NCBI GenBank assembly: GCA_026004975.1
Contig: BPKE01000002.1
Coordinates: 124,001-188,000 of the forward strand
From: Gammaproteobacteria bacterium
Lineage (GTDB): Bacteria; Pseudomonadota; Gammaproteobacteria; HTCC5015
Direction: 5' to 3'
Length of the DNA: 64,000 nt
Shown here piece by piece: positions 44,055 through 64,000 of this stretch (position 1 is its first letter; every line of letters begins with the position of its first letter). The notes beneath the pieces are model-generated. The model worked only from the letters and a program-made list of their open reading frames with translations. It searched no databases and had not been told where the DNA came from. The position numbers were made by a program, and so were the translations under genes.

Positions 44055-44106
44055 GACGGTCTCTCCTGGCGTGGGGCCGCGGGCAAATGTAACCGATGGC
44101 GCGGAC

Positions 44107-44138
44107 AAAAAAAAGCCGCCCGCCGGGGGGCGGGCGGC
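44107..44138 (-). terminator. Intrinsic terminator of xylBA
   Basis: On the minus strand a stem of at least 8 bp (44115-44122 with 44131-44138) is followed by eight T (44114-44107), 20 bp after the xylA stop and just upstream of the sugar porter gene. Confidence 0.85.
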
Positions 44139-44158
44139 TGCCGGTCGGTTCGCCGCGT

Positions 44159-45475: not shown

Positions 45476-45508
45476 GCTTGGCTTACCTGTCGTCGACGAT
45501 GTGATGGA

Positions 45509-46981
45509 TCAGGCCTGCGGGGCGCTGAAGAACGGCGCCTCCAGGGTTTGGTACAGGGCCCGGTAACGCGGCCACAACCGCGCGTAGAGCGCCTGGAGTT
45601 CCGGCTCGGGTTCGGCGACGCGGCGGATCGGCTGCGGCTCGACCTCGATGCGGCCGGTGTCGCCGAACCGGGCCAGGCGGGCGGCACCGAAGGCCGGGCC
45701 CAGCTCCGCGCCCTCGCGGTAGATCAATTTCCGGCCGAGCACGCTCGCCAGGATGCGCCCCCACAGCACGCTGGCGGCGCCGCCGCCGATCACCGACACC
45801 TCCTCGATGGCGGTGCCGGCGTCGTACAAGGCCTGCTGGCCGTCGGCGAAGGCGAAGGCCACCCCTTCGAGCACGGCGATCACCAGATCCGCGCGCTCGG
45901 TGGCGTGCGTCAGCCCGAAGAACACGCCCTTGGCATAGGGGTTGTTGTGCGGCGTGCGCTCGCCCGAGAGGTAGGGCAAGAACAGCGGCTTTTCGGCCGG
46001 ATCGCGCAGCAAGGGCCGGCCTTCGGCCTCGGCGAGCATCTCGGCCTCGCTGGCGGCGCCCAGCACGCCCTTGAGCCAGCTCAGGCAACTGGCCGCGCTC
46101 AGGATCACGGACATCTGGTGCCACCGCCCCGGCAGGCAGTGGCAGAAGGCGTGCACCCCGCCCTGCGGGTTGGCGCGGTACTCGCCGCTGGAGACGAAAT
46201 ACACCCCCGAGGTGCCCAAGGAGACGAAGGCCGTGCCCGGCTCGATGACGTTGGCGCCGACCGCGCCGGCGGCGTTGTCACCGCCGCCGCCGACCACCGG
46301 CACCGTACCGAGCCCCCAGCGGTCCGCCACCTCCGGACGCAGCCGGCCGGTGATCTCGGTGCCTTCGAACAGCCGGGGCATGTGGCCCTCGTTCAGCCCG
46401 CAGGCCTCGAGCAGCTCCGGCGCCCAGCGGCGCTCGGCGACGTTCATCCACAGTGTTCCGGCGCTGTCCGACATGTCCGAGGCGTACTCACCGGTCATGC
46501 GCCAGCGCAGATAATCCTTGGGCAGGAGCACCTTGGCCACGCGCGCATAGGCCTCGGGCTCGTGGCGGCGCAGCCACACCAGCTTGGGCGCCGTGAAACC
46601 GGGCATCGCGCGGTTGCCGGCGATGCGCGGCAGGTCCGGCACCGTCTCCTCGAGCCAGGCGCACTCGGCATGCGAGCGCCCGTCGTTCCACAGGATCGCC
46701 GGGCGGATCACCCGGCCCTCCGCGTCGAGCAGCGTGGCGCCGTGCATCTGGCCCGACAAGCCCACCGCCCGCACCGCGGCGAAGGCCCGTTCCTGGCGCG
46801 CGCGCATGGCGAGCACCGCCTGGTCCGCCGCCGTCCACCAGCCCTCCGGATCCTGCTCGGACCATAGCGGCCGCGGCCGCGACACGGTCAGCGGCGCCGA
46901 GGCCGTGTCCACCACGCGGTCCTGCTCGTCGATGAGCACCGCCTTCACCGCCGAGGTGCCCAGATCGATTCCGATGTACAT
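45509..46981 (-). CDS. xylB: Xylulokinase
   Basis: A 490-residue FGGY kinase phosphorylating D-xylulose. N-terminal phosphate loop YIGIDLGTSAVKAVLIDEQD, the GLSGQMHGATLLD motif, the catalytic-Asp region PVVGGGGDNAAGAVGANV, and SVIGGGAASVLWGRILASVL. The start at 46981 gives the family N-terminus and has GGAGG upstream. First gene of xylBA; the 363-bp upstream region holds a LacI-type operator candidate. Confidence 0.97.
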   Translation of the reverse strand: MYIGIDLGTSAVKAVLIDEQDRVVDTASAPLTVSRPRPLWSEQDPEGWWTAADQAVLAMRARQERAFAAVRAVGLSGQMHGATLLDAEGRVIRPAILWNDGRSHAECAWLEETVPDLPRIAGNRAMPGFTAPKLVWLRRHEPEAYARVAKVLLPKDYLRWRMTGEYASDMSDSAGTLWMNVAERRWAPELLEACGLNEGHMPRLFEGTEITGRLRPEVADRWGLGTVPVVGGGGDNAAGAVGANVIEPGTAFVSLGTSGVYFVSSGEYRANPQGGVHAFCHCLPGRWHQMSVILSAASCLSWLKGVLGAASEAEMLAEAEGRPLLRDPAEKPLFLPYLSGERTPHNNPYAKGVFFGLTHATERADLVIAVLEGVAFAFADGQQALYDAGTAIEEVSVIGGGAASVLWGRILASVLGRKLIYREGAELGPAFGAARLARFGDTGRIEVEPQPIRRVAEPEPELQALYARLWPRYRALYQTLEAPFFSAPQA

Positions 46982-47141
46982 TCCGCCCAGCCTCCACTTA
47001 GGCGCGGCGCCCGTCGGACCGCGCTCCCGAACCACGCAAAACTGTAACCCAGGCGGCCGCCGGCGCAAACCGCGGGCCCGTGCGACTTGGACCGTGTCCG
47101 AGGCGGACACCGGCCGCTCTAGGCCGAGTTTACCCCAGCGA

Positions 47142-47155
47142 TGGCAACGTTGTCA
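47142..47155. promoter_or_regulatory. Candidate LacI-family operator upstream of xylB
   Basis: TGGCAACGTTGTCA is a 14-bp palindrome with one mismatched pair and the AACGTT centre typical of LacI/GalR-family operators. It lies 160 bp upstream of xylB. LacI-type XylR regulators commonly control xylose genes in TonB-type carbohydrate loci, but no regulator gene is in the window. Confidence 0.4.
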
Positions 47156-47287
47156 GCCTCCGGAAACGAGAGCGCCCCGGCCGCCCCCGCGCCGCGCGGC
47201 CGGGGCACCCTCCCAGTGCACCCCGGGCGACGGCGACGAACCCGGCCGAGGGCTCCCCGCCCACCGCGGACTCCAAGCCAGGCGCGC

Positions 47288-47320
47288 AAAGAAAGAGGCC
47301 GCTGCCGAAGCAGCGGCCTC
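47288..47320 (-). terminator. Intrinsic terminator of the xylan TonB receptor
   Basis: A perfect 11-bp stem (47295-47305 with 47310-47320) with a TTCG loop on the minus strand, followed by TTTCTTT (47294-47288). It lies 24 bp after the receptor stop codon. Confidence 0.88.
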
Positions 47321-47344
47321 CAAAAGAGACGCCTCCTGCGAGAA

Positions 47345-50300
47345 CTAGAATTCCACGCGCGCACCGAAGAGATAGCGCGGTTGGAATTCCTGCCACAACC
47401 ACAGGTTGCTTTCGTCGCGGCCGTAGTGCTTGGTGTTCTCTCCGTTGACGTTGATCCCTTCGAGCGTCAGGGCAAGGAAATCGGTCACTTGCCACGCGAG
47501 GCTCACGTCGATCTGGCGGTAGTCGTCGACGAACACCGGGTTGCGATCGCCGCCGCGGTTGACCGACCGCAGGTAGCTGTCACGCCAGTTGTAGGAGGCT
47601 CGCGCCGAGAACCCACCGCGCTCGTAAATGAGCGTCAGGTTCGCGGTGTCGCTCAAGCCGAGCAGCGCGAACTGGTCCTCGGAAGGCGGCGCGCCGACGT
47701 CGATCCCGACGTCGCCGTTGACCGTGGTGTAGTTGGCCTGGATACCGAAGCCGCTGTCGCCGAAGAAATGCTGCCAGGCCCATTCCAAGCCCTGGATCGT
47801 GCCGGTTTTGTTGTTCAACTGCGTCTGGAACGCAAATTCGAACAGCGGATCACTGCTGTCCGGAACGATGTCGTACGCTGCCAGCACGTTATCGACGAAA
47901 GTCTGGTCCAACTCGCCCGTCACCGGGTCGATCTGGTTCTGGAACTCCGTGAACGGATCGGGGAAGTCCGCAGGGTTGTCGATCATCGCCGTCAAAGTGA
48001 ACAGGTTCACCTCGGTCGGCTGGAAACCGTTGTCGAGCAACCACTGCATCGCCTGCCCCGAGCGCGTGCCGGGCGCACCCGAACTCGGGTCACGCAGATC
48101 GAACAAGGGTTGATTGATCACACCGGACCCGATGAAATTGTCGACCTTCTTGCGATAGGCCCCGACCGAGAAATAACTCGCCTCGCCGTAATAGTACTCG
48201 AGCGAGATGTCGAGGTTCTCCGACTCCATCGCTTCGAGGGCCGGGTTGCCGCCGCTGCCCGTCGGCACACCCGCCGTTGGCGGTCGGGCGGGGCGGAGTG
48301 CCCGCGTTGATGTTCGCAAACAAGCTGCCGTACCCCGGCCGCCCGATCGTCTTGCTGTAGGAGAAGCGACCCCACGAGGGCGTCGGACAACTCGACTTTC
48401 AGGTCGAGGTTGGGCAGCGTGTTGCTGTAGTCATTTTCGATGGTGACGGGCAGGCGCTCACTGGTGAGGGTGATGGTGAAGTCGTTGTCCGACTGCCAGA
48501 TGATGTTTTGGGGCACCGGAATCAACGACGTCGAGGTCACGTCGGTCTGCTCGTGCCGGACACCAAGCACCACCTGGTACGGCAAGCTGCCGAGTTCCCC
48601 ATCGTGGGTAACCTGGATGAAAACGGCGCTGATGTCTTCCTCGACCGTATTGTTTTCGTCGTTGGTGACGAACAGGCTGTTGCCTCGGCTGTCGTACAGC
48701 GCACTCAACTGCTGGAACAGCTCGTTGGCGTTTGCACGGAAACCGATGCGCCCGGGGTCCCCTTCGGGAAGGCCGGGGTCGAACTCCTTGAACTGACACG
48801 CGATGCAGAACGTTTCGATCAAGGAGGTGTCCACGTCACCCGGGTTGTTGATCCCCCAGTCACCCAACACCTGCTGGGTCTGGATCCGCTTTTGGGTCAT
48901 CTCGAGGCTACGGGCGTCGACACCGGCGTCCACGCGCCAGCCGTCGCCGACATCCCAGTTCAAGGTCACGCTGCCACCCGTGATTTCGGTGAGCTGGGAC
49001 GACGAGATCGTCCGGGCCATCTGGGAACCAAGGTCGCCCGCGTCCAGCTCCCCATTGGCGTTGGTGCCGCCGTCGAGGCCCGCGGTATCCCTGACCGTGT
49101 CGTCGATCGAGATGAACTGCTGCGGGAAACCGGAGCGCCGGAAATCCAGGGAATGCTCCGCGATCACCGGCGCGCCGATGGAGACCGTAACGGCGTTGTT
49201 GGTGATCGTCCGCCCGTCCGGCAAGGTGAGAGACATGCCATCGGGCGAGCTTTCCGCTTCGGCACTGTACACATCGAAGGTAAGATCGACCCCGTCAGAC
49301 AGGGTCCATTGCGCATTGAAGCCGACCTCGTCGAGGGTGTCCTCGATGTTGTACATCTGCTGCTCGAAACCCTCGTCCTTGACCCCCGCGATGTCCTCAT
49401 ACAGGAACACCGTGGTCGCCACGACCGGGTTGTCGTCGAACTGGACGGCATCGAAGGGCCGGTTGAACCAGTTCGTTTTATCCGAACGCTGCTCCTGCTG
49501 CGTATTCGTCGCCGTCAACGCATCGAGAGTCAGGGTCAGCGTATCGGTGGGACGGAACTGGACCGTCAACATGGCATTGTCACGCTCACGCGTGAAATCG
49601 GAGCGGTGCCAGCGGCTGTCGTTCGGCACCGAGACGAATTGCTGGCTGCTCGCGGGGACGTTCGCGATGGTGGTCGTCGGGGAAACGAAATTGTTGCCGG
49701 TGTCGAGGAACTGTTCGACGGTCCGGATGTTCCAGCCGTTCACCGTGGCACTCATCGCCGAGCTGTCGCGTTCCTGGTGGCTGACGAACAGCGACACCCC
49801 CCACACGTCGGAGCCGTTGAAACTGAGCATCGCGCTGATCTCGGGCGTGTTCTCGTCGCCCTCGATCACGCTCTTGTCGTGCACGATCTTGGCCAGAACC
49901 GCGCCGCTGAACCCCTCCTCCTGCTCCAGCGGCCGGTGCGTCTTGATGTTCACCGTACCGCCGAGACCACCGCCGGCGACCGTGGCCCTGCCGGTCTTGT
50001 AGACCTCCAGCCCGGCGACGCCTTCCGAGGCCAAGTTTGAGAAGTCGAAGGAACGCGAAGCACCGGTGGCAAAGGCGGCGTTCTGGTCCCCACCGATGAC
50101 CGAAACGTTGGCGCTGGGCAGATGGCGGCCATTGAGCAACACCAGATTGTTGCCGCCGCCGAAGCCGCGGACGGTGATCTCGGCGCCCTCGCCGTTGACG
50201 CGGTCGATCGCCACGCCGGTGATGCGCTGCAGCGATTCGGCGAGGTTGGTATCCGGGAACTTACCGATGTCTTCGGCGGAGATCGCGTCGACCACGCCGG

Positions 50301-50463
50301 CCGAATCGCGCTTGATGTCCATCGCCCGCTCGAGCGAGGCGCGGATCCCCTGGACGACGACTTCTTCCACGGGACCCTGGGCGAGCGCCTGACCGCCCGC
50401 CAGGGAGGACCCGACCAGGGCGGTGTAAATCGCTTGCGAGAGCTTGCTCTTTTCGAACTTCAT
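47345..50463 (-). CDS. TonB-dependent receptor of the xylan locus (two frameshifts)
   Basis: A large receptor of about 1038 residues after correction. The signal peptide (IYTALVGSSLAGGQALAQ) is followed by EEVVVQGIRASLERAMDIKR, the plug (GKFPDTNLAESLQRITGVAI, GAEITVRGFGGGNNLVLLNG) and a 22-strand-type barrel ending FQPRYLFGARVEF. This form, with a short TonB-box region and the IRASLERA motif, is typical of carbohydrate-utilisation receptors. Two single-base insertions interrupt it, near 48369 (ALVG to RFSYSKTIGRPGYGSLFA) and near 48271 (PTANG to GVPTGSGGNPALEAM). Context points to xylo-oligosaccharides as ligand (inference). Confidence 0.88.
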
Positions 50464-50599
50464 GCTGATACCCCCCAAGGGTGTGTTGAGTGGAACGACA
50501 ACCGGCGCGCCTCCCGCGCGCCTCGGCGTTGCGGTTCACGAGCGATGGCCGCGTGGCGGCCACCCGGCCCGGCCGTCCTTGAAGCCGGAACCGCGCGGC

Positions 50600-50832: not shown

Positions 50833-52348
50833 ATGGACAAACCTCCCGTACACCGCGTGGTGATCGCCGGCGGCGGCACGGCCGGCTGGCTGGCCGCCGT
50901 GGCGCTTTCCGCAGCAGCTGGGCCCCTTGCTGGAGCTGACCCTGGTCGAGTCGGAGGACATCGGCGTGGTCGGCGTCGGCGAGGCGACCATCCCGCCGGT
51001 GCGCACCTACCACAAGCTCGCCGCGGTGGACGAGCGCGCCTTCATGCGCGCCAGCCAGGCGACCTTCAAGCTCGGCATCGCCTTCGAGAACTGGGGCCGG
51101 CCCGGCGACCGCTACATCCATTCCTTCGGCCGCCTCGGCCTGTCGACCTGGATGGCGGACTTCTTCCAGATCTACCTCGAGGGCCGCCGGCGCGGGCTCG
51201 TCGAGGACGAGGTCGGCGCCTACTGCCTCGAATGGAAGGCGGCCGAGGCGGAGCGCTTCGCCACCGGCGGCGAGCCGGAATTGAATTACGCCTACCACCT
51301 GGACGCGGCGCTCTACGGCCGCCACCTGCGCGGGCTGTGCGAGGCGCGCGGCGTGCGCCGCATCGAGGGCAAGATCGTCGAGGTGGAACAGGACCCGGAC
51401 TCGGGCTTCATCCGCGCCCTGCGCCTCGAGGACGGCCGCCGCGTGGAGGGCGACTTCTTCCTCGACTGCACCGGCCTGCGCGGCCTGTTGATCGAACAGA
51501 CCCTGGGCACCGGCTTCGAAGACTGGTCGCACTGGCTGCCGATGGACCGGGCGCTGGCGGTGCAGACCCGGGCGCTGCGCCCGGCCCCGCCCTACACGCG
51601 TTCGATCGCGCACGCGGCCGGCTGGCAATGGTGGATCCCGCTGCAAAACCGGGTCGGCAACGGCCTGGTGTACTGCAGCGCCCACCTCTCCGACGAGGAG
51701 GCCGCCGACACGCTGATGGCGCACATCGAGGGCGAGACGCTCAACACCCCCCGCCTGATCCGCTTCCGCACCGGCCGCCGCCGCCAGGTGTGGAACAAGA
51801 ACTGCCTGGCCGTGGGCCTGTCCAGCGGTTTCCTCGAGCCGCTCGAATCGACCAGCATCCACCTGATCCAGAACGCCGTGCACCGTTTCATGCGGCTGTT
51901 CCCTTTCCACGGGGTGACCCCGGCGCTGGTCGAACGCTACAACCGCCTCGCCCGCCAGGAGATCGAGGCGATCCGCGATTTCATCATCCTCCACTACAAG
52001 GTCACCGAACGCGAGGACAGCCCCTTCTGGCGGGACTGCCGGCACATGGCGGTGCCCGACACGCTCGCGTTGCGCATCGCCCTGTTCGAACAGAACGCGC
52101 TCGCCTTCCAGGACGGCGAGGAGCTGTTCGCCATCGACTCGTGGATCCAGGTGATGCTCGGCCAGCGGCTCGCCCCGGGCGGCCACCACCTGTTCGCGCG
52201 CATGATGACCGACCAACAGCTGCGCGGGGCGCTCGACGGCCTGCGCCGCAAGGTCGAAGCGCGGATCGGTGCGCTGCCGCCCCACGACCGCTTCGTGCGC
52301 GAGTACTGCGCCGCCGAGGCGGCGCCCTCGCCCGCGCCGACGGGGTGA
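50833..52348 (+). CDS. Tryptophan halogenase-like FAD-dependent protein (one frameshift)
   Basis: About 504 residues after correction. FAD-binding GGGTAGWLAA near the start, the EATIP/ATFKLGIAFENW region that contains the halogenase catalytic Lys position, the WxWxIP motif (GWQWWIPLQNR) and GLSSGFLEPLESTSIHLI are all present. Removing one base near 50911 joins VALS to QQLGPLLELTLVE. Family members halogenate tryptophan or indole, but many sit next to TonB receptors in carbohydrate loci and their substrates there are unknown. It is divergent from the xylan receptor and first in the glycosidase series. Confidence 0.88.
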
Positions 52349-52363
52349 CAACGCTGTCCTCCT

Positions 52364-52403
52364 CGGGCACCATTGGGGTTCCCTGCCCCTTGCGAGGTGC
52401 CCG
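52364..52403 (+). promoter_or_regulatory. Hairpin covering the GH9 ribosome-binding site
   Basis: CGGGCACC (52364-52371) pairs perfectly with GGTGCCCG (52396-52403). The 3' arm contains the Shine-Dalgarno bases and ends immediately before the GH9 ATG. A nested GGGG/CCCC pair (52375-52378 with 52386-52389) could close the loop. No T-run follows. It could limit translation of GH9 relative to the gene before it. Confidence 0.5.
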
Positions 52404-54860
52404 ATGCGCAGACCCTTGTGGATCGCGGCGGCGCTGCTCGCCGCCGGCGCCGCCCCGGCCATGGAGCGCCGCAGCGAAAGCCTGACGCTGCACGCCCCGG
52501 CGCTCGACGTCTTCGTGTTCAACACGCCGTACAACGACTATTTCGGCGACAGCAAGATCAGCGGCATCGAGCTGGTCCATCACCACCGGCGGCTGGCCAC
52601 CAACGGCGACCTGCGCCTGAACCCCACCCCGGAGCAGTGGGATCCGGTGCCCGAAATCGTCGAGCGCCGGGCGCACGGCACCGGCGTCGCCGTGCAACTG
52701 CGCTACGCGCGCGAGCGCTTCGAGTACACGGTGATCGTCGAGCCGGCCGGGCCGCGCGCCTTCACGATCACGGTCGAACTGGCCGCGCCGCTGCCCGCGG
52801 CGCTCGCCGGCCGGGCGGGCTTCAACCTGGAGTTCCTGCCCAGCGCCTATTTCGGCCACGGTTACTTCATGGACGACACCCCCGGCCTGTTCCCCCTGCA
52901 CCCCACCAGCCTGAAGGAGATCCCGGGGGTGCAGGCCCCCGAGCCACTGGCACGCGGCCGGCGCCTGGTGCTCGCCCCGGACGCCGCCGAGCGCCGCCTG
53001 GACATCGCCAGTGAAAGCGGCGAGCTGGTGCTCTACGACGGCCGCGGTCGCGCCCAGAACGGCTGGTTCCTGGTCCGCGAAGTCCTGCCCGCCGGCCGCG
53101 CCGGCACGGTGCTGCGTTGGCGGGTCGAGGCGGGCCACGCGGGGAACGACCTGCGCCCGCCGGTGATCGCCCACAACCAGCTCGGCCACCCGCCGCAAGC
53201 CCCGAAGCGGGCGGTGATCGAGCTCGATGCACGCGCGCGGCCGGCGCGCCGGGCGCGGGTGCTGCGCGTACACCCCGACGGCCGGGAGGAAACGGCCCGC
53301 ACCCTGCGGCCGGCCGACCTCGGCCGTTGGCTGCGCCACCGTTACGTGGCGCTGGATTTCGGCGACCTTCGGGAACCGGGTTTGTACCGGATCGAATACG
53401 CCGGGGCGCGCAGCGCGCCCTTCCCCATCGCGCCCGACGCCTGGACGCGGGCCTGGCACCCGACGCTCGACGTCTACCTGCCGGTGCAAATGGACCACAT
53501 GCGTGTCGAGGAAGGCTACCGGGTGTGGCACGGCGCCTCCCACCTGGACGACGCCCGCCAGGCCCCGGTGGGCCACCGGCATTTCGACCTCTACGCCCAG
53601 GGCCCGACCACCGAGACGCGCTACGCCCCGGGCGAACACGTGCCCGGCCTGAACGTCGGCGGCTGGTACGACGCCGGCGACTACGACATCCGCACCCAGA
53701 CCCAGTACGACGTCGTCAATACGCTGGTCGAGCTCTGGGAGCGCTACGCGCCGGCGCGCGACACCACCCATGTCGACTGGACGGCGCGCCGCGTCGAGTT
53801 GCACCGCGCCGACGGCACGCCCGACGTGCTCCAGCAGATCCGCCACGGCGTGCTCGCCCTGGTCGCCCAGTACCGCGCTTTCGGCCGCGCCGTGCCCGGC
53901 ATCGTCGCGCCGACCCTCGAGCAGTACACCCACCTGGGCGACGGTGCGAGCAAAACCGACAACTTCGTCTACGACCCGGCGCTGGGCGAGCTCGAACGGC
54001 GCGACGGCAAAAGCGGCCTGCCCGACGACCGCTGGGTGTTCACCGGTCACAGCAGCGCGCTCAACTACGGCGCCGCCGCCGCGCTGGCCGCCGCCGCCCG
54101 GGTGCTGCCGCCGCTCGACCCGGCGCTCGCCGCCGAGGCCCTGGACCACGCCCGGCGCGCCTGGGCCGAGGAAGACGCGCGCCCGGCGCCGGCGCGGTTC
54201 ACCAGCGGCAACACCACCGGCGGCCCGCTCGAGCTGGAGCGCTTCAAGGCGGCCGTCGAGCTGTGGTTGAGCACCGCCGAGGCGGCCTACGGCGAAGCCG
54301 CGGTGCAGGCCCTCGACGCGCTCGAACCGTTTTTCGAAGCGGCCCTGCCCTGGTTGCTCAAGGCCGCACCGCGCTTCGACGAAGCCACGCGGGCGCGCCT
54401 GCGCCGGCGTGCCGCGGACTGGTTGCGGACCGCCCGCGCCGAGGAAGCCGCCAACCCGTTCGGCGTGCCGATCCGCCGCGGCGGCTGGGCCGGCAACGGT
54501 TTCGTTCTGCGGCGCGCGCTGGCGCACGACGCCGTCTGGCGGCTGTTCCCGGACCTGGGCGAGCGCGAGGCGGCCGCCCGCGGCCTGGACTACCTTCTGG
54601 GGACGCACCCGGACCACGCGTTGTCCTTCGTGTCGGCCGTCGGCGCCCGCTCCAAGCGCGTCGCCTACGGCATGAACCGGGCCGATTTCAGCTTCATCCC
54701 CGGCGGCATCGTGCCGGGCGTGCTGATCATCGAGCCCGACCTGCCCGAAAACAAAGAAGACTGGCCGTTCCTGTGGGGTGAAAATGAATACGTCGTCAAT
54801 CTCGCGCCCGCTTACATCCTGCTCGTCCACGCCGTCCAGGACGCGCTCGCCGCGCCCTGA
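52404..54860 (+). CDS. Glycoside hydrolase family 9 protein (secreted)
   Basis: An 818-residue secreted enzyme. A signal peptide (PLWIAAALLAAGAAPAM) is followed by an N-terminal domain of about 220 residues I cannot name, then an Ig-like CelD_N module (PVIAHNQLGHPPQAPKRAVI) and the (alpha/alpha)6 catalytic barrel. The catalytic base motif GGWYDAGDYDIRTQTQ has Asp423 and Asp426; the acid lies in WGENEYVVNLAPAYIL (residues 793-795). GH9 enzymes are mainly beta-1,4-endoglucanases, but the family also includes exo-acting and oligosaccharide-specific members. In this locus action on xylan- or mixed-linkage chains is possible. The 3' end overlaps the next gene by 77 bp. Confidence 0.85.
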   Translation: MRRPLWIAAALLAAGAAPAMERRSESLTLHAPALDVFVFNTPYNDYFGDSKISGIELVHHHRRLATNGDLRLNPTPEQWDPVPEIVERRAHGTGVAVQLRYARERFEYTVIVEPAGPRAFTITVELAAPLPAALAGRAGFNLEFLPSAYFGHGYFMDDTPGLFPLHPTSLKEIPGVQAPEPLARGRRLVLAPDAAERRLDIASESGELVLYDGRGRAQNGWFLVREVLPAGRAGTVLRWRVEAGHAGNDLRPPVIAHNQLGHPPQAPKRAVIELDARARPARRARVLRVHPDGREETARTLRPADLGRWLRHRYVALDFGDLREPGLYRIEYAGARSAPFPIAPDAWTRAWHPTLDVYLPVQMDHMRVEEGYRVWHGASHLDDARQAPVGHRHFDLYAQGPTTETRYAPGEHVPGLNVGGWYDAGDYDIRTQTQYDVVNTLVELWERYAPARDTTHVDWTARRVELHRADGTPDVLQQIRHGVLALVAQYRAFGRAVPGIVAPTLEQYTHLGDGASKTDNFVYDPALGELERRDGKSGLPDDRWVFTGHSSALNYGAAAALAAAARVLPPLDPALAAEALDHARRAWAEEDARPAPARFTSGNTTGGPLELERFKAAVELWLSTAEAAYGEAAVQALDALEPFFEAALPWLLKAAPRFDEATRARLRRRAADWLRTARAEEAANPFGVPIRRGGWAGNGFVLRRALAHDAVWRLFPDLGEREAAARGLDYLLGTHPDHALSFVSAVGARSKRVAYGMNRADFSFIPGGIVPGVLIIEPDLPENKEDWPFLWGENEYVVNLAPAYILLVHAVQDALAAP

Positions 54861-56799
54861 GCGGGCCTTTCGGCTCGGCCTGGCGCTGCTCCTCGGGCCG
54901 GCGCTCGCCCTCGGCGGCGAGTTGCGCCTGCCGCGGCTGTGGAGCGACGGCCTGGTGCTGCAGCGCGACGCCGTCGCCGCCGTCGGCGGCTGGGCGCCGC
55001 CCGGCGCCGTGGTCGAAGTCCACTGGCGGGGTGAGCGCCATACCGGCAGCACCGACCTGCACGGCCGCTGGCGCATCGCGCTGCCCACCGGCGCCGCGGG
55101 CGGTCCTTTCACCCTGACCGTGGCCGACGGCCGCGACCGCATCGAGATCCGCGACGTCCTGGTCGGCGACGTGTGGCTGGCCTCCGGCCAATCCAACATG
55201 GAAATGACCGTCGCGCGCGTCCTGCCGCGCTTCCCCGGCCTGCTCGACGACGCCGATCAGCCCGCCATCCGCCAGTTCGACGTCCCCGACCGCTACGCCT
55301 TCCGGGCCCCCGAAACCGATCTCGCCGGCGGCGCCTGGGTCCGCGCCGGCGCCGACACGGTGCCGGACTTCTCGGCCCTGGCCTGGTTCTTCGCCCGCGC
55401 CCTGCGCGCCCGCCACGACGTGCCGATCGGCCTGATCAACGCCAGCCTCGGCGGCTCGCCCGTGGAGGCCTGGATGGCCGCCGAAACCCTCGAGGATTTT
55501 CCGGAACTGCTCGAACGCGCCCGGCGCTGGGCCGACCCACGCGAGATCGAAGCGGTGGAGAAAGCCGACCAGGCGCGCATCGCGGCCTGGCAGCGCCGCC
55601 TGGACGAGGCGGACCCGGGGCTCGCCGGCGGCCGGCCGCGCTGGGCCGAACCGGGCCTGGACGACGCCGGTTGGACGCCGGTGGCCGTGCCCGACCGTTG
55701 GCCGGACCGCCGCGACGCCTGGCGTGCGCCGGGCGCGGTCTGGTACCGCACCGAGCTGCGCCTGCCGCGGGAGCTGGCGGGCCAGGCCGGCGTGCTGGAA
55801 CTCGGCCGTCTGGCGGACGCCGACCGGGCCTGGGTGAACGGCGTCGAAGTGGGCCAAACCGGCTACGAGTGGCCGCCACGCCGCTATCCGATTCCCGCCG
55901 GCGTGCTGCGTGCCGGCGCCAACAGCATCGTCGTGCGCCTGGTCATCCAGCGCGAGCAGGGCGGCTTCGTCCCCGGCAAGGCGCTGGCGCTGCACGCCGC
56001 AGGACGCCGTTTCGAACTCGCGGGCCTGTGGCGCATGCGCCGCGGTGCCGACGCCGAGCCGCTCGATCCGCCGACCTTCATCCGCTGGCAGCCGGTCGGC
56101 CTGTACAACGGGATGATCGCGCCGCTGGTCGGCTTCCCCATCAAGGGCGTCATCTGGTACCAGGGCGAGTCCAACGTCGGCCGCGCCGAACAATACCGGA
56201 CCCTGTTCGCGCGCCTGATCGGCGACTGGCGGGCGCGCTGGGGACAGGGCGACTTCCCCTTCCTGTTCGTCCAGCTCGCCGCCTTCCTGGCGCCGAACCC
56301 CGAGCCGGCCGACAGCGCCTGGGCACGCCTGCGCGAGGCCCAGGCCCGGGTCGCCGCCGCCGTGCCCAACACCGCCATGGCCGTCGCCATCGACCTCGGG
56401 GAATGGAACGACATCCATCCCCTGGACAAACGCACCCTCGGCGAACGGCTGGCCGCGGCCGCCGAGGTCCTGGCCTACGGCGGCCGCGGCGTCCACCAGG
56501 GGCCGGTGTTCCGGCGCCTCGAGCGCGACGGGCCCCGCCTGCGGGTCTATTTCGACCACGTCGGGGGGGGACTGGTCGCCGTCGGCGGCGATGCGGTGCG
56601 TGAATTCGCCGTCGCCGGCGCCGACCGCCGTTTCGTGCGCGCCCAGGCGCGCATCGAAGGCGATCACGTCGTCGTCTGGAGCGACGCCGTGCCCCGCCCC
56701 GTGGCGGTGCGCTACGCCTGGGCCGACAACCCCGAGCGCGCCAACCTCTACAACGCCGAAGGTTTCCCCGCCGTGCCCTTCAGGAGCGATGACTGGTGA
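54784..56799 (+). CDS. SASA-domain carbohydrate esterase (probable acetylxylan esterase)
   Basis: A 671-residue secreted protein of the sialate O-acetylesterase/SGNH type. The nucleophile is in LASGQSNMEM (Ser137); the oxyanion block is GVIWYQGESNVG, and NDIHPLDKRTLGERL carries the Asp543/His545 pair. A beta-sandwich insert (about residues 290-400) splits the SGNH domain, as in the family. In a xylan locus, removal of O-acetyl groups from xylose residues is the likely job. The ATG at 54784 lies inside the end of GH9; no later in-frame ATG/GTG/TTG precedes the hydrophobic signal core (FRLGLALLLGPALALG). Confidence 0.82.
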   Translation: MNTSSISRPLTSCSSTPSRTRSPRPERAFRLGLALLLGPALALGGELRLPRLWSDGLVLQRDAVAAVGGWAPPGAVVEVHWRGERHTGSTDLHGRWRIALPTGAAGGPFTLTVADGRDRIEIRDVLVGDVWLASGQSNMEMTVARVLPRFPGLLDDADQPAIRQFDVPDRYAFRAPETDLAGGAWVRAGADTVPDFSALAWFFARALRARHDVPIGLINASLGGSPVEAWMAAETLEDFPELLERARRWADPREIEAVEKADQARIAAWQRRLDEADPGLAGGRPRWAEPGLDDAGWTPVAVPDRWPDRRDAWRAPGAVWYRTELRLPRELAGQAGVLELGRLADADRAWVNGVEVGQTGYEWPPRRYPIPAGVLRAGANSIVVRLVIQREQGGFVPGKALALHAAGRRFELAGLWRMRRGADAEPLDPPTFIRWQPVGLYNGMIAPLVGFPIKGVIWYQGESNVGRAEQYRTLFARLIGDWRARWGQGDFPFLFVQLAAFLAPNPEPADSAWARLREAQARVAAAVPNTAMAVAIDLGEWNDIHPLDKRTLGERLAAAAEVLAYGGRGVHQGPVFRRLERDGPRLRVYFDHVGGGLVAVGGDAVREFAVAGADRRFVRAQARIEGDHVVVWSDAVPRPVAVRYAWADNPERANLYNAEGFPAVPFRSDDW

Positions 56800-58343
56800 T
56801 GAAAACGCTGACTTTGCTCGCCGGCGCCCTGCTCGGCGTCACCGCCCTCGCCAGCCCCCTGCGCATCGACGTCGACGCGCGCCACGACGGCCCGGTGCTG
56901 TCGCGGTATTTGTACGGTCATTTCAGCGAACACCTCGGCGACGGCCTCTACAACGGCCTCTGGGTGGGCCCCGACAGCGACATTCCGACCGTCGGTGACG
57001 GCTTCCGCCGCGACGTGGTCGAGGCCCTGCGCGAACTGGGGGTGCCCGTGCTGCGCTGGCCGGGCGGCTGCTTCGCCGACGAGTACCACTGGCGCGACGG
57101 CATCGGCCCGCGCGCAAAGCGCCCGGTGCGGACCAACACCCACTGGGGTTGGGTGCCCGAACCCAACGCCGTCGGCACCCACGAATACTTCCAGCTCCTG
57201 GAGCTGCTCGGCGCCGAGGCCTACGTCGCCGGCAACCTGGGCAGCGGCTCGGTGGCGGAAATGGCCGACTGGCTCACCTACCTGACCGCCGACGGCGACC
57301 ACGTCCTGGCCCGCGAGCGCCGCGCCAACGGCCGCGAACGCCCCTGGAAGGTCGCCTTCTGGGGCGTGGGCAACGAATCCTGGGGCTGCGGCGGCCACCT
57401 TCGCCCGGAGCACTACGCCGACCTCTACCGGCGCTACGCCACCTTCCTCAAGGCCCCGCCCGAACTGGCCCCGCTGCGCATCGCCAGCGGCGGCTACGAC
57501 GCCCTCACCGAGTGGACCGAAGTGCTCGCCCGGGACGTGCCCAAAAACCTCATCGACGGCATCAGCCATCACTACTACACCCTGCCGACCGGCGACTGGG
57601 CGCACAAGGGCGCCTCCACCGGTTTCCCGGAACGCGAATGGATCGGCACCCTCGCCCGCGCCCTGGCCCTGGACGAACACATCGCCGCCCAGGTCCGCGT
57701 GCTCGAACGCCACGACCCGGAGAACCGCATCGGCCTGTACCTGGACGAATGGGGCACCTGGTACGACGGCGACGACCCGGCGCGGCCGCTGTACCAACGC
57801 AACACCCTGCGTGACGCCCTCGTCGCCGCCTTGCACTTCCACGTCTTCCACCGCCACGCCGAGCGGGTGCGCATGGCCAACATCGCCCAGATGGTCAACG
57901 TCCTGCAGGCCCTGATTCTCACCGACGGCCCGCGCATGGTCCGCACCCCGACCTATTACGCCTTCTGGCTGCACCGGCCGTTCCGCGACGCCCGGCGTCT
58001 CGAATCACGCCTGCGCGGTGTGCCGCGCTACCGCCACGGCGACCTGTCCGTGCCGGCGGTCGACGCCAGCGCCGCCCGCGCCGCCGACGGTCGCATCCTG
58101 CTCAGCCTGGTCAACCTGGATCCGAACCGGCCGCAAACCCTGTCCGTCGGCCTGGACGGGGCGACGGCCGCCGACCACGAGGCCGAAGTGCTGACCGCCG
58201 AGGCCATGGACGCGGAAAACCGCTTCGACGCGCCTTCGGCCGTCAAACCCCGGCCGCTCGCGGTGGTCCAAGACGGCGACCGCTTGCGATTGACCTTGCC
58301 GCCCAAGTCGGTGGCCGTACTGCGCATCCGCCCGTCGCCATGA
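56799..58343 (+). CDS. Alpha-L-arabinofuranosidase, GH51, with signal peptide
   Basis: A 514-residue GH51 enzyme removing arabinofuranose side chains. Acid/base Glu193 is in GVGNESWGCGG and the nucleophile Glu317 in LYLDEWGTWY; the N-terminal YLYGHFSEHLGDGLYNGLWV and VLRWPGGCFADEYHWRDGIG are canonical. It has a clear signal peptide (TLLAGALLGVTALASP), so it works in the periplasm or outside, whereas many GH51 enzymes are cytoplasmic. ATG overlaps the esterase stop by one base; GTG at 56796 is an alternative. Confidence 0.93.
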   Translation: MKTLTLLAGALLGVTALASPLRIDVDARHDGPVLSRYLYGHFSEHLGDGLYNGLWVGPDSDIPTVGDGFRRDVVEALRELGVPVLRWPGGCFADEYHWRDGIGPRAKRPVRTNTHWGWVPEPNAVGTHEYFQLLELLGAEAYVAGNLGSGSVAEMADWLTYLTADGDHVLARERRANGRERPWKVAFWGVGNESWGCGGHLRPEHYADLYRRYATFLKAPPELAPLRIASGGYDALTEWTEVLARDVPKNLIDGISHHYYTLPTGDWAHKGASTGFPEREWIGTLARALALDEHIAAQVRVLERHDPENRIGLYLDEWGTWYDGDDPARPLYQRNTLRDALVAALHFHVFHRHAERVRMANIAQMVNVLQALILTDGPRMVRTPTYYAFWLHRPFRDARRLESRLRGVPRYRHGDLSVPAVDASAARAADGRILLSLVNLDPNRPQTLSVGLDGATAADHEAEVLTAEAMDAENRFDAPSAVKPRPLAVVQDGDRLRLTLPPKSVAVLRIRPSP

Positions 58344-58397
58344 ACCCGGCCCGGCGGTGTGCGGCGGCCGGCGGCGCCGGGCGGCGCCGGAGAACCG

Positions 58398-59537
58398 ATG
58401 CCGCGAACCCGCCGCCCGACCTTCCCCGCGTTGCTCGCCGGCGCCCTGCTGCTCCTGGCCGGCTGCAGCCCCCTGGCGGGGCTGCGGCCGCCGCCGGCTT
58501 CGGCCCTGGAGGCCGCGCTGTCCGGTCGCGCCCTGCTCGGCCGACCCGTCCGGCCCGAAGCGCTGCCCCGGATCGACCCCTTCGCCCTGGACGAGCGGCT
58601 CGAAGCGCTGGCCGCCGACCTGGCGGCGCGACACCCCGAAGCTTGGCCGCGCGCCCGCGCCCTGCACGCGGCGCTGCTGCAACCGCCCCACCTCGGCGGG
58701 CGCGGCCTGCGCTACGACGCCGCCGCCCCGACCCTGCCCGCCGCCGAGGCCTACCGCCTCGGCCGCGTCAACTGCCTGAGCTACAGTCTGCTCTATGTCG
58801 CCCTGGCGCGGCGCGCCGGCCTGGACGCGGCGCTCAACGACGTCGAACCGCCGCCGAGCTGGGATCTGCGCGATGACGACACCCTGCTGCGGCTGCGCCA
58901 CGTCAACGCCAAGCTGCGCCTGGGGCGCCGCGACGAGCTGGTGGTCGACCTGGACATGGCCCGGTACCGGCCCGAATACCCGCAGCGCCGGCTCGCCGAC
59001 CGCGAGGCCACGGCCCTGTTCCATGCCAACCGGGCGCTGGAAATCGCCGCCGCCGGCGACGAGGCCGGGGCCTTCCTGCACCTGCGGCGCGCCCTCGATC
59101 TCGACCCGGCCAACCCCCACCTGTGGAACAACCTGGGCAATCTCTACCTGCGCCACGGCCGGCGCGGCGAAGCCGAGGCCGCCTACTTTCGCGGGCTGGC
59201 GCTCGCCCCCAGCGACCCCACCCTGCTGGTCAATCTCGCCAACCTCTACGCCGCCGCCGGCCGCCACGCCGATGCCGCACGGCTGGAAACCCGGTTGCGG
59301 CGTTACCGCGAACGCAACCCCTATCATCTCTACGCCCGCGCGCGGGCCGCATTGGCCGCCGGCGCGCTCGAGGACGCGCACACCGCCGTCACCCGCGCGC
59401 TCGATGTCGGCGGCGACCGCGACCCGCGCATCCTGGAACTCGCCGCCCGCATCCAGCGCGCGCTCGGCCGCGAGGCGCGCGCGGCGCGCTACGAGCGCCT
59501 CGCCCGCGAGCTGGATGCCGCATCCCCGACCCCTTGA
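58398..59537 (+). CDS. Lipoprotein with transglutaminase-like fold and TPR repeats
   Basis: A 379-residue lipoprotein (lipobox LLLLAGCSP). Residues about 100-190 match the transglutaminase-like fold: RVNCLSYSLLYVALARRAG (Cys126), LRHVNAKL (His168) and VVDLDM (Asp184/186) give a plausible Cys-His-Asp triad. The rest is TPR repeats, including NPHLWNNLGNLYLRHGRRGE and DPTLLVNLANLYAAAGRHAD. ATG at 58398 follows GGAGA. It sits between GH51 and GH43 but belongs to no glycosidase class. Possible peptidase, amidase or envelope scaffold; the role in xylan use is unknown. Confidence 0.72.
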   Translation: MPRTRRPTFPALLAGALLLLAGCSPLAGLRPPPASALEAALSGRALLGRPVRPEALPRIDPFALDERLEALAADLAARHPEAWPRARALHAALLQPPHLGGRGLRYDAAAPTLPAAEAYRLGRVNCLSYSLLYVALARRAGLDAALNDVEPPPSWDLRDDDTLLRLRHVNAKLRLGRRDELVVDLDMARYRPEYPQRRLADREATALFHANRALEIAAAGDEAGAFLHLRRALDLDPANPHLWNNLGNLYLRHGRRGEAEAAYFRGLALAPSDPTLLVNLANLYAAAGRHADAARLETRLRRYRERNPYHLYARARAALAAGALEDAHTAVTRALDVGGDRDPRILELAARIQRALGREARAARYERLARELDAASPTP

Positions 59538-59549
59538 GGAGCCGCACCG

Positions 59550-61229
59550 ATGATCCGACCCCGCCTCGCCGCGGCGCTGTGGCTGCTGGCCGCCGCCGGC
59601 CCCGCCCTCGCCGCCCCCGAAGCCGTTTTCGAAGCCTTCGAATACCAGGGCGCCGACCCGGTCTTCGAGCCCCCGCCGCCGCCCGGCCGCTACCAGAACC
59701 CCATCATCGCCGGCTACCACCCGGATCCGAGCATCGTGCGCGTCGGCGCCGACTTCTATATGGTCCATTCCAGCTTCGCGCACTTCCCCGCCCTGCCGGT
59801 CTACCACAGCCGCAACCTGGTCGACTGGAGGCTGATCGGCCACGTCTTCGACGACCCCGAGCGGCTCGACCTGGCGGGCCTGGGCACCTCGCGGGGGCTG
59901 TTCGCCCCGACGATCCGCCACCACGAGGGGCGTTTCTACGTGGTCGGCACCGTGGTCGACGGCGGCGGCAATTTCGTCGTCACCGCCGAGGACCCCGCCG
60001 GGCCCTGGTCGGCGCCGGTGTGGCTGCCGGAGGTCGACGGCATCGACCCCGACCTGTTCTTCGACGACGACGGCCGCGCCTGGCTGACCCACAACGGCCC
60101 GCCGCCCGGCGAACCGCGTTGGCCCACCCACCGGGCGATCTGGCAGTGGGCCTTCGACCCCGAAGCGCTGCGCGTGCTGCCCGGCAGCGCCGAGCTGCTC
60201 GTCGACGGCGGCAGCCGCCCCGAGGACGAACCGGCCTGGGTGGAAGGCCCGCACCTCTACAAGATCGACGGCCGCTATTACCTGCTGTGCGCCGAGGGCG
60301 GCACCGAGGAGAACCACTCCGAGGTCGTCTTCCGCGCCGACCACGTGCGCGGCCCCTACCACCCCTACCCCGGCAACCCCATCCTCACCCAGCGCGACCT
60401 GCCGCCGGACCGGCCGGCGCCGATCGCCAACACCGGCCACGCCGACCTGGTGCAGACCCCCGCCGGCGAGTGGTGGGCGGTGTTCCTGGGCGTGCGCCCC
60501 TACGACGCCGCCGGCCATTTCAACACCGGCCGCGAAACCTTCCTGTTGCCGGTGCAGTGGCTCGACGGCTGGCCGCGCATCGTGGCGCCGGCCACGCCCG
60601 TGCCCTGGCGGCCGCCGGCCCCGCGCGGCCTGCCCGCCACCCCCGGTGCCGAGGCCACCACCGGCAACTTCCGCTGGCGCGACGACTTCGACGGCCCGCG
60701 CCTGTCGGGCCATTGGGTCTGGCTGCGCGGCGGTGACGCCCGCGACTGGGCGCGGCTGGCGGACGGCCGCTTGATCCTGCGCGCCCGCGCCGACCGCCTC
60801 GACGGCCGCGGCCGTCCCGCCTTCCTCGGCCGCCGCCAGGCGCACACGCGCTTCTCGGCGCGGCTCACCCTGAGACCGCCCGCGGCGCCCGGCCTGCGCG
60901 CCGGCCTGGCGGTCTACTACGACGAAGGCCACCACGACGTGCTCGGCCTGCGCCGCCTGGCCGACGGCCGCCTGGAAGCGCGGCTGGAGCGCGCCGACGG
61001 CGGCCCACCCCGCATGGTGGCGCGGCGCGTCCTCGCCGCGACCGGGCCGATCGAGCTGGCCGTGGACGGCCGCGGCCGCGAGCTCGCCTACGCGGCGGGC
61101 GCGCCCGGCCGCGCCGAGCCCCTGGGCGCCCCCCTCGACGCGCGCGCCCTGAGCACCGTCCACGCCGGCGGCTTCGTCGGCGTGATCCTCGGCCCCTACG
61201 CCCACCTCGAAACGGAGGGCGCACCGTGA
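59550..61229 (+). CDS. Glycoside hydrolase family 43 (beta-xylosidase/arabinofuranosidase)
   Basis: A 559-residue secreted GH43 enzyme. Signal peptide WLLAAAGPALAAP. The five-bladed propeller has the three carboxylates: base Asp59 in YHPDPSIVR, Asp166/168 in GIDPDLFFDDDG and acid Glu232 in EGPHLYK. A C-terminal beta-sandwich (from FRWRDDFDGPRLSGHWVWL) matches the XynB/GH43 C-terminal domain, pointing to the beta-xylosidase subgroup. GAGGAG precedes the ATG; the gene follows the TPR lipoprotein by 12 bp and overlaps GH115 by 4 nt. Confidence 0.92.
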   Translation: MIRPRLAAALWLLAAAGPALAAPEAVFEAFEYQGADPVFEPPPPPGRYQNPIIAGYHPDPSIVRVGADFYMVHSSFAHFPALPVYHSRNLVDWRLIGHVFDDPERLDLAGLGTSRGLFAPTIRHHEGRFYVVGTVVDGGGNFVVTAEDPAGPWSAPVWLPEVDGIDPDLFFDDDGRAWLTHNGPPPGEPRWPTHRAIWQWAFDPEALRVLPGSAELLVDGGSRPEDEPAWVEGPHLYKIDGRYYLLCAEGGTEENHSEVVFRADHVRGPYHPYPGNPILTQRDLPPDRPAPIANTGHADLVQTPAGEWWAVFLGVRPYDAAGHFNTGRETFLLPVQWLDGWPRIVAPATPVPWRPPAPRGLPATPGAEATTGNFRWRDDFDGPRLSGHWVWLRGGDARDWARLADGRLILRARADRLDGRGRPAFLGRRQAHTRFSARLTLRPPAAPGLRAGLAVYYDEGHHDVLGLRRLADGRLEARLERADGGPPRMVARRVLAATGPIELAVDGRGRELAYAAGAPGRAEPLGAPLDARALSTVHAGGFVGVILGPYAHLETEGAP

Positions 61230-64000
61230 CCGGCGTCCGGCGCATCCTCGGCCTGCTGCTCCTCGCCGGCGCCGCCGGCGCCTGGGCTGCGCTCGACGAC
61301 GACCCGCCGGTGCGCGAACGCCCGCGGCCCGGCGACTTCCCCCTGGTCGGCCCGCGCGGCCCGGCGCCGCTGTGGGTGGACGCCGCCGACCTGCCCGGCG
61401 TCGGGCGCGCCGCCGGCGATCTCGCCGCCGACATCGAGCGCGTCACCGGCCGCCGTCCGGCGCTCGGCCACGACGCCCCGCAAGGGGCCGCGGCGGTGCT
61501 CATCGGCACCCTCGGCCACAGCCGGCTGATCGACGCCCTGGCCGCCGCCGGGCGGTTGCCCGTCGAGACGCTGCACGGGCGCTGGGAGGCCTACCACGTC
61601 GCCGTCGTCGAAGCGCCGCTGCCGGGCCTGGAACGCGCCCTGGTGATCGCCGGCAGCGACCGCCGCGGCACGATCTACGGCGTCTACACCCTCTCCGAGG
61701 CGATCGGCGTCTCGCCCTGGTACGACTGGGCGGACGTGCCGGTGCGCCACCGCCGGGCGCTCTACCTGCCGGCCGGCACGCGCCTTTCCGACGCCCCGCG
61801 CGTGCGTTACCGCGGCATCTTCATCAACGACGAGGCGCCGGCGCTTACCGGTTGGGTCAAGGCCCATTACGGCGACTACGACCACCGCTTCTACCGCCGC
61901 GTGTTCGAACTGCTGTTGCGCCTGAAGGCCAACCTGCTGTGGCCGGCGATGTGGAACAACGCCTTCGCCGACGACGACCCGGAAAACCCACGGCTCGCCC
62001 ACGAATACGGCATCGTCATGGGCACCTCCCACCACGAGCCGATGATGCGCGCCGACAAGGAGTGGAACCGCCACGGCCGCGGCCCCTGGCAATACTCGAC
62101 CAACCGCGAGGCGATCTACGCCTTCTGGGAGGAAGGGGCGCGCCGGGCCAAACCCTACGACAGCATCTTCACCCTCGGCATGCGCGGCCAGGAAGACCGG
62201 CCGCTGAGCGAGGGGGAGAACATCGAACTGCTGCAGCGCATCGTCGCCGACCAGCGCGAGATCCTCGCCCGCGTGTTCGGCGCCGAAAACCTCACCCGCG
62301 TACCGCAGGTCTGGACGCTCTACAAGGAAGTCCAGGGCTTCTACGAGCGCGGCATGCGCGTGCCCGACGACGTCACCCTGATCTGGAGCGACGACAACTG
62401 GGGCAACCTGCGGCGCGTGCCGACCGCACAGGAACGCCGCCGCAGCGGCGGCGCCGGCGTCTACTACCATCTGGACTACGTCGGCGGACCGCGTTCCTAC
62501 CGCTGGATCGGCACGGTCCACATCGCCAAGATCCAGGAGCAGATGAACCTCGCCTGGGCTTTCGGCGCCGACCGGCTGTGGATCGTCAACGTCGGCGACA
62601 TCAAGCCCATGGAATTCCCCATGGAGTTCTTCCTGCGCCTGGCCTGGGACCCGGAGGCCTGGCCCGCTTGGCGCCTGCCCGAGTACACCCGGCGCTGGGC
62701 GGCGCGCGAATTCGGCGCCGAACACGCCGCCGACATCGCCGCCCTGATCGACTTCTACACCCGCCACAACCAGCGCCGCAAGCCCGAGCTGCAGGACCAG
62801 AGCAGCTACAGCCTGCTCGCCCACCGCGAAGCCGAGCGCGTCGAGGCCGAGCTGCAGGACGCGCTGGCGCGCGCGAGCGCGCTGGAGGCGCGGCTGGCGC
62901 CGGCCTGGCGCGACGCCTACGTGCAACTCGTCGGCCACCCCGTGGCCGCCAGCGCCAACCTGACCCTCATGTACATCGCCCAGGCGCGCAACCATCTCTT
63001 TGCCGAACAGCGCCGCGCCGAGACCGAGCGCTGGGCCCGGGTCGTGCTCGACCGCTTCGCCGAGGACGCCCGCCTCACCGAGCGCTACCATCGCCTGCGC
63101 GGCGGCAAGTGGCGGCACATGATGGACCAGCCGCACATCGGTTATCTGTACTGGAACAACCCGCCGGAGAACGTCACGCCGGTCACCGCCCACTACCGCC
63201 CCCACCTGGCGCCGGACATGGGGGTGGCGATCGAGGGCCAGGCGCGCGCCTGGCCGGTGCCCGGCCCCTACCGCCTGTCCTTCACCCGCTTCGGCCAGCC
63301 GACCCGGCGCATCGAGGTGTTCAACCGCGGCCGCACGCCGTTCACCGCGCGCATCGAGACCGATGCCGACTGGATCCGCCTGGACCGCGAAACGTTCACC
63401 GTGGCCGACAGCGTGCCGGTGGAAATCGGCGTCGACTGGACGCGGCTGCCGCCGGGCCGCCACCGTGGGTGGTTGACCGTGCACGGCGCCAGCTGGGGGC
63501 CGGCCCGCATCGAGGTGGTCGCCGAGCAACCGCCGGCGGCGCTGGTCGAAACGGCGCGCGGTTTCCTCGAAGGCGACGGCGTGGTCGCCATCGACGCCGC
63601 CCATTACCAGGCCAGGGGGGCGGCGGACGGCCTCGACTGGGTGGTGTTGCCCGGCTTCGGCCGGCGCGGTTCGGCGCTCACCACCCTGCCGGCGGCCGAC
63701 CGCTTCTACGACGATCCGGCCGCCGCGCCTTGGGTCGAATACGAATTCACGCTCTTCGAACCCGGCGAACGGGCGCTCATCGTCGAGCTCGCCCCGACCC
63801 AACGCCTCTTCCCCGACCGCGGCCTGCGCTACGCCGTGGCCTTCGACGGCGGCCCGCCGCGCATCCTCGACGCCCTGGAAGGCTACGACCAGGCCGCCTG
63901 GGAACGCGCCGTGATCGCCAACCTGCACCGCCACGCGAGCCGGCATCGCTTCGCGCGCGCCGGGGTGCACCGCCTGCGCCTGTGGCGGCTCGATCCCGGG
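61226..64000 (+). CDS. Xylan alpha-1,2-glucuronidase, GH115 (3' end beyond window)
   Basis: An open frame of 925 codons with a GTG start overlapping the GH43 stop (GTGA) and no stop before the window edge. A signal peptide (RRILGLLLLAGAAGAWA) precedes the GH115 domains: GSDRRGTIYGVYTLSEAIGV, KANLLWPAMWNNAFADDD, GIVMGTSHHEPMMRADKEWN, WSDDNWGNLRRVP and WIVNVGDIKPMEFPMEFFL. GH115 enzymes are about 950 residues, so nearly all is present. They remove (4-O-methyl)glucuronic acid from internal and terminal xylose residues, completing the debranching set of this locus. Confidence 0.94.
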   Translation, partial: MTGVRRILGLLLLAGAAGAWAALDDDPPVRERPRPGDFPLVGPRGPAPLWVDAADLPGVGRAAGDLAADIERVTGRRPALGHDAPQGAAAVLIGTLGHSRLIDALAAAGRLPVETLHGRWEAYHVAVVEAPLPGLERALVIAGSDRRGTIYGVYTLSEAIGVSPWYDWADVPVRHRRALYLPAGTRLSDAPRVRYRGIFINDEAPALTGWVKAHYGDYDHRFYRRVFELLLRLKANLLWPAMWNNAFADDDPENPRLAHEYGIVMGTSHHEPMMRADKEWNRHGRGPWQYSTNREAIYAFWEEGARRAKPYDSIFTLGMRGQEDRPLSEGENIELLQRIVADQREILARVFGAENLTRVPQVWTLYKEVQGFYERGMRVPDDVTLIWSDDNWGNLRRVPTAQERRRSGGAGVYYHLDYVGGPRSYRWIGTVHIAKIQEQMNLAWAFGADRLWIVNVGDIKPMEFPMEFFLRLAWDPEAWPAWRLPEYTRRWAAREFGAEHAADIAALIDFYTRHNQRRKPELQDQSSYSLLAHREAERVEAELQDALARASALEARLAPAWRDAYVQLVGHPVAASANLTLMYIAQARNHLFAEQRRAETERWARVVLDRFAEDARLTERYHRLRGGKWRHMMDQPHIGYLYWNNPPENVTPVTAHYRPHLAPDMGVAIEGQARAWPVPGPYRLSFTRFGQPTRRIEVFNRGRTPFTARIETDADWIRLDRETFTVADSVPVEIGVDWTRLPPGRHRGWLTVHGASWGPARIEVVAEQPPAALVETARGFLEGDGVVAIDAAHYQARGAADGLDWVVLPGFGRRGSALTTLPAADRFYDDPAAAPWVEYEFTLFEPGERALIVELAPTQRLFPDRGLRYAVAFDGGPPRILDALEGYDQAAWERAVIANLHRHASRHRFARAGVHRLRLWRLDPG

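Follow-up and report, generated by a model that had tools for sequence, protein, structure and literature searches.

What would a lipoprotein with the catalytic residues of a transglutaminase-like enzyme do in the midst of glycoside hydrolase genes? The question is posed by an open reading frame at positions 58398-59537 (+ strand) of the 64,000-nucleotide stretch of gammaproteobacterial DNA analyzed in this work (hereafter the window), which encodes 379 amino acids followed by a stop codon. The preliminary description of this DNA had suggested that the product might process or cross-link envelope proteins, organize the surface enzymes or cleave cross-links in cell-wall xylan, and it made a specific tie to the surrounding polysaccharide genes a point to be checked.

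The gene and its genomic context

The ATG at 58398 appears preferable as the start codon to the GTG of a longer frame beginning at 58359, because it is preceded by GGAG (58389-58392, +), a likely ribosome-binding site located 5 nt upstream; the codon-position GC content (0.84/0.56/0.90, calculated for the longer frame) has the profile of a genuine coding gene in this DNA. With frames chosen by codon-position GC and families assigned by Pfam, a cluster of seven genes is found on the + strand: a flavin-dependent tryptophan-halogenase-family gene, the first of the cluster (50927-52348; PF04820, 2.1e-169), a GH9 gene (52269-54860), a SASA-type carbohydrate esterase gene (54778-56799), a GH51-type alpha-L-arabinofuranosidase gene (56796-58343), the lipoprotein gene, a GH43 gene (59550-61229), and a GH115 alpha-glucuronidase gene (61226-64000) that runs past the end of the window. 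Just beyond the window, the GH115 gene is followed by a LacI-type regulator, its family judged from the sequence (L144:3135-4172). On the opposite strand, upstream of the cluster, lie genes for a TonB-dependent receptor, an FGGY-family sugar kinase, a xylose-isomerase-like protein and a sugar transporter. This is a xylan/arabinoxylan utilization locus. The lipoprotein gene indeed sits between GH51 and GH43 with short gaps, as described previously, 54 bp separating it from the former and 12 bp from the latter; overlaps of 4 bp occur elsewhere in the cluster. A search of the intervals that separate the lipoprotein gene from its neighbors revealed no promoter- or terminator-like site, and the gene is likely to be co-transcribed with the locus.

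Some details of this region should be recorded separately. The gene calls on the + strand at 44096-50002 are spurious frames, as codon-position GC and Pfam matches place the actual genes of this region on the - strand. The TonB-dependent receptor (47345-50478, -) is split over two overlapping frames, with the plug in 48118-50478 and the barrel in 47345-48319, which suggests a frameshift around 48118-48319, due either to an assembly error or to a broken gene. It is adjoined by the tryptophan-halogenase-family flavoprotein that opens the glycosidase cluster. About 4 kb beyond the window there is an open frame composed of a repeated ELLDS peptide, encoded by a short DNA tandem repeat (L144:7384-7791, corresponding to G000:C2:192384-192791).

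Domain architecture and predicted active site

The N-terminus carries a lipoprotein signal, LLLAGC-S, with the lipobox LAGC-S at 58455-58469 and the predicted lipid-modified Cys23 encoded at 58464-58466 (+). It matches the pattern [LVI][ASTVI][GAS]C (MPRTRRPTFPALLAGALLLLAGC), and the residue at +2 is Ser, which under the usual Lol rule would favor sorting to the outer membrane. A lipobox-like motif recurs in relatives from Cellvibrionaceae and Nevskiaceae, and no match to it was found in most members of the family from Lysobacteraceae. Judging from the lipobox, we infer that the protein is exported, lipid-anchored and faces the periplasm.

The lipoprotein signal is followed by a transglutaminase-like (papain-fold) domain, residues 34-206 (58497-59015, +), which the Transglut_core profile (PF01841) matches only below the threshold (residues 104-144; E-value 0.052, 14.3 bits vs. 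the gathering score of 23). The same profile matches a 36%-identical relative (L002) above the cut-off of 23, with 28.5 bits, and 54 of the 58 aligned family members at E<=0.01. The residues Cys126, His168 and Asp184 named in the preliminary description were found exactly as stated, encoded at 58773-58775, 58899-58901 and 58947-58949 (+), respectively, and they fall in the Cys-His-Asp order of the papain/transglutaminase core. The predicted catalytic Cys and His are invariant in the family (58/58 each), Asp is retained in 57/58 members and replaced by Asn in one, and the Cys-His spacing is nearly fixed. This conservation indicates that the triad is not a chance arrangement.

A full-length AlphaFold2 model built on the 58-row alignment has a mean pLDDT of 93.4 and pTM of 0.89, and the structure check proposed earlier thus yielded a canonical core with the triad: Cys126 at the N-terminal end of helix 126-139, His168 as the first residue of strand 168-174, and Asp184 just after the next strand, 180-183. 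Transglutaminases and papain-like enzymes have their triads placed in the same way as predicted here. When the PDB was searched with a sequence profile of this domain, no matches were obtained, and because TPR proteins dominated the results of a fold search with the full model, the domain was modeled alone (mean pLDDT 92.1). With this model the best Foldseek match in the PDB was the periplasmic domain of Pseudomonas aeruginosa TgpA (E-value 1.3e-3, probability 1.00, TM-score 0.54 on the query), followed by Streptococcus pyogenes TglA, a putative cysteine protease from Cytophaga hutchinsonii, the pseudomurein endoisopeptidase PeiP, LapG, and transglutaminases; the matches to TgpA, TglA and animal transglutaminases have probabilities of 0.9-1.0 and modest E-values.

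The C-terminal part, residues about 201-375 (58998-59522, +), forms a superhelix of ten helices assigned to the TPR type by profiles, model and fold search. Matches to TPR profiles cover residues 218-300 and extend further (TPR_17 at 4.6e-11), and the structural model contains the expected helical hairpins. TPR modules typically bind proteins.

Distribution of the family

A first scan of genome contigs with the single protein detected no relatives, and in the first search for relatives most matches were confined to the TPR region and were discarded. An alignment of six rows was too diverse to derive patterns, and one of three rows served to find the relatives. About 60 full-length relatives were collected, mostly gammaproteobacterial: from Cellvibrionaceae (Gilvimarinus, Cellvibrio, Exilibacterium), Lysobacteraceae (Stenotrophomonas, Xanthomonas, Pseudoxanthomonas, Luteimonas), Nevskiaceae and Wenzhouxiangellaceae, and from a few Acidobacteriota. 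The same architecture, mostly of 380-420 aa, is found in Cellvibrionaceae, Lysobacteraceae, Nevskiaceae and Acidobacteriota. Among 399 sampled genomes of the phylum 32 encode the family, and all of these belong to the same class as the window. The family of transglutaminase-like proteins with TPR is uncharacterized but widespread in gammaproteobacteria.

In the phylogenetic tree the window protein belongs to a clade of 14 with sequences of the Cellvibrio/Gilvimarinus type (support 98/96). It must be noted that its branch is long, at 1.18 changes per column, and its composition deviant, which makes its exact place in the tree unsure, and that with such a branch its function may have drifted. 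It is the single copy found in its own genome, which is 64% complete; the three nearest relatives of the source genome contain no clear copy, and the match in G001 is partial and very weak. No 16S sequence was detected in the source genome or in two relatives.

Is the family linked to polysaccharide genes?

The position of the gene invites the idea of a helper specific for xylan utilization: a lipoprotein recruited to mature, shed or organize the surface glycosidases or the adjacent TonB-dependent receptor, with the cysteine protease core used for cleavage and the TPR arm for docking. The close spacing to GH51 and GH43 on either side within a cluster of genes on one strand, the presence of the only copy in the available genome at this very site, and the closest relatives in Cellvibrionaceae, a family rich in plant-polysaccharide degraders, are all in its favor.

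Recurrent pairing with glycoside hydrolases was sought in both directions. The GH51, GH43, GH115, GH9 and esterase proteins of the window, together with other ORFs, were used as tblastn queries. No match to the xylan-cluster proteins was found at 1e-5 when 80 named loci of homologues were searched with flanks of up to 10 kb per side, whereas the same queries do match on the window itself. In the extended set of 120 homologue loci (1.71 Mb in total, 29 of them with flanks of only 1.5 kb), searched at 1e-3, none contained relatives of the five enzymes; the comparison covers families homologous to these five rather than every CAZyme family. Conversely, none of 18 loci with a close GH51 homologue in other genomes (approximately 46-57% identical) had a gene of the transglutaminase-TPR family. 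The view that xylan loci are not known to include such a lipoprotein stands, and searches of the literature for a transglutaminase-TPR or xylan connection returned nothing relevant.

Five other genomes contain both GH51 and the lipoprotein family, and in all five the genes are unlinked. They reside on separate contigs in G015 (35 and 37), in G690 (29/32 and 6/12) and in G698 (42 and 9/33); in G538 (3.90 and 0.10 Mb) and G644 (0.44 and 2.60 Mb) both lie on one contig, where their coordinates differ by about 2-4 Mb. Homologues scattered away from polysaccharide genes are what the preliminary description had named as grounds for refutation, and the recurrent tie to GH43, GH51 or GH115 looked for at the outset is contradicted.

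On the other hand, whenever another genome of this class in the 399-genome sample has a close GH51 (E-value below 1e-140), it also carries the lipoprotein family somewhere (5/5). We give little weight to this weak counter-signal, because shared ancestry (two of the five belong to the same genus) and perhaps lifestyle confound the co-occurrence, and because there is an exception: a sixth genome with a close GH51, G276, which is outside the sample, has GH115 near GH51 and no lipoprotein at that locus, and the matches that the class-wide search for the family produced do not include it. As a single genome cannot show selection for the pairing, and adjacency was found in no other genome in either direction of the search, we consider the xylan-specific helper unlikely. 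A related reading, in which the captured lipoprotein is a cysteine protease that would by now process or dock surface glycosidases or the TonB-dependent receptor when the cells grow on arabinoxylan, seems decidedly unlikely as well.

Recurrent neighbors of the relatives

In Cellvibrionaceae the commonest neighbors of the lipoprotein gene are those of a nitrate-type transporter, namely a divergent NMT1-like substrate-binding protein, a permease and an ATPase. In 12-13 loci (L061-L073, L081) the lipoprotein gene is oriented divergently from this ABC transporter, which lies upstream. This is the single recurrent context of the close relatives, and perhaps a better functional clue than the xylan operon. 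In five Gilvimarinus loci (L066, L069, L070, L073, L081) the next gene downstream encodes an exported-looking protein of the endonuclease/exonuclease/phosphatase family (Exo_endo_phos). Of the 25 neighbor families seen most often, a single one relates to carbohydrates, the 3-keto-disaccharide-hydrolase domain, whose gene follows the Cellvibrio copies in three loci.

The neighbors also bear on a role in cell-wall metabolism, in which the papain-fold domain would act as an amidase or endoisopeptidase on peptide cross-links of peptidoglycan and the TPR arm would bind a partner. A lipid anchor and periplasmic exposure would fit such a role, as would the presence of PeiP among the structural neighbors. 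However, PeiP matches less well than TgpA or TglA, no peptidoglycan-binding domain is found among the Pfam matches of the window protein, and apart from OmpA-domain genes near the homologue in a few loci there is no cell-wall gene among the recurrent neighbors. This explanation is improbable.

Comparison with known transglutaminase-like proteins

The window protein is most similar to the unnamed family described above. Members from Gilvimarinus, Cellvibrio, Stenotrophomonas and Pseudoxanthomonas exhibit full-length, co-linear homology at 27-41% identity, with the same triad and domain order and a similar size; in contrast to the window protein, none of the other members examined is located beside relatives of these glycoside hydrolases. 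A transglutaminase-like domain followed by TPR is also present in SirB1/YchA (Transglut_core2 + TPR), which are cytoplasmic, unlike the predicted lipoprotein; Transglut_core2 matches weakly in 7/58 family members and not in the window protein. The plan of a cysteine-peptidase domain with TPR is further shared by the PA2778-family C39 cysteine peptidases. An assignment to that family was rejected, as NF033920 scores 24.7 bits against a cut-off of 150 and at the TPR end only, and so was an identity with PilW, Tgl or PrsT, for which the NCBIfam matches are restricted to TPR and far below the cut-offs.

Among the solved structures the closest fold is that of TgpA (PA2873; PDB 6g49), whose periplasmic transglutaminase-like domain has a Cys-His-Asp triad. 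Unlike the window protein, which is a predicted lipoprotein with TPR, TgpA resides in the inner membrane, contains a DUF3488 region and lacks TPR. The LapG/BTLCP proteases (Peptidase_C93), including HvyA, likewise combine a periplasmic location with a papain fold and a Cys-His-Asp triad, to which the window protein adds TPR and a lipid anchor; the profile itself (PF06035) is neither among the Pfam matches of the window protein nor among the 25 commonest families of its relatives. The spacing of the window triad resembles that in HvyA (C192-H226-D241) (PMC4241560). TgpA exhibits transglutaminase activity in vitro (PMC3507681), and BTLCP members such as LapG and HvyA are periplasmic proteases or resemble them (PMC4241560).

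Proposed function

We propose that the window protein is probably an outer-membrane-anchored, periplasm-facing Cys-His-Asp hydrolase or acyltransferase with a general role in the envelope, which in one lineage came to reside in a xylan operon. This explanation best accommodates the signal, the papain-type core and the TPR superhelix seen in the sequence and the model, from which the chemistry is deduced. The established chemistry of this superfamily proceeds through a thioester, which arises by attack on the carbonyl of an amide or ester and is then resolved by water or an amine. By analogy, Cys126 would attack an amide (or ester) carbonyl, and the resulting thioester would be resolved by water, as in a peptidase or amidase, or by an amine, as in a transamidase. 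The substrate may be an envelope protein held by the TPR arm, whose groove could accommodate either the substrate or a partner protein. Because of the bacterial precedents with the LapG-type fold, a role as peptidase or amidase appears more likely than cross-linking.

In the case of direct action on polysaccharide, the enzyme would cut ester or amide cross-links of xylan or modify uronic acids. Of the functions suggested previously, cleavage of xylan cross-links is the least likely, since relatives without a xylan context keep the same active site; it is conserved in dozens of genomes that have no such locus nearby. The TPR arm, typical of protein binding, also speaks against this reading, while the GH115 alpha-glucuronidase and the carbohydrate esterase in the same operon could be cited for it. 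A precedent exists in WbmE, a periplasmic transglutaminase-like protein described as involved in the modification of the LPS O-antigen (PMC3507681). All things considered, direct action seems extremely improbable.

According to the preferred scenario of a general envelope enzyme, the function would be far older than the xylan cluster, and the gene would have been captured into the operon in a single lineage; its expression may follow xylan utilization, while its chemistry need not. Were the captured protease to act on the glycosidases or the receptor, it would represent a proteolytic maturation step in a gammaproteobacterial polysaccharide-utilization system, and a dedicated xylan helper would couple envelope proteolysis to polysaccharide uptake, which the comparative evidence does not support. 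As a new member of a known superfamily the window protein is unremarkable, and what is unusual is the location of its gene in one genome; if the general role is correct, the protein would enlarge a widespread family of envelope proteins whose cysteine active site is intact.
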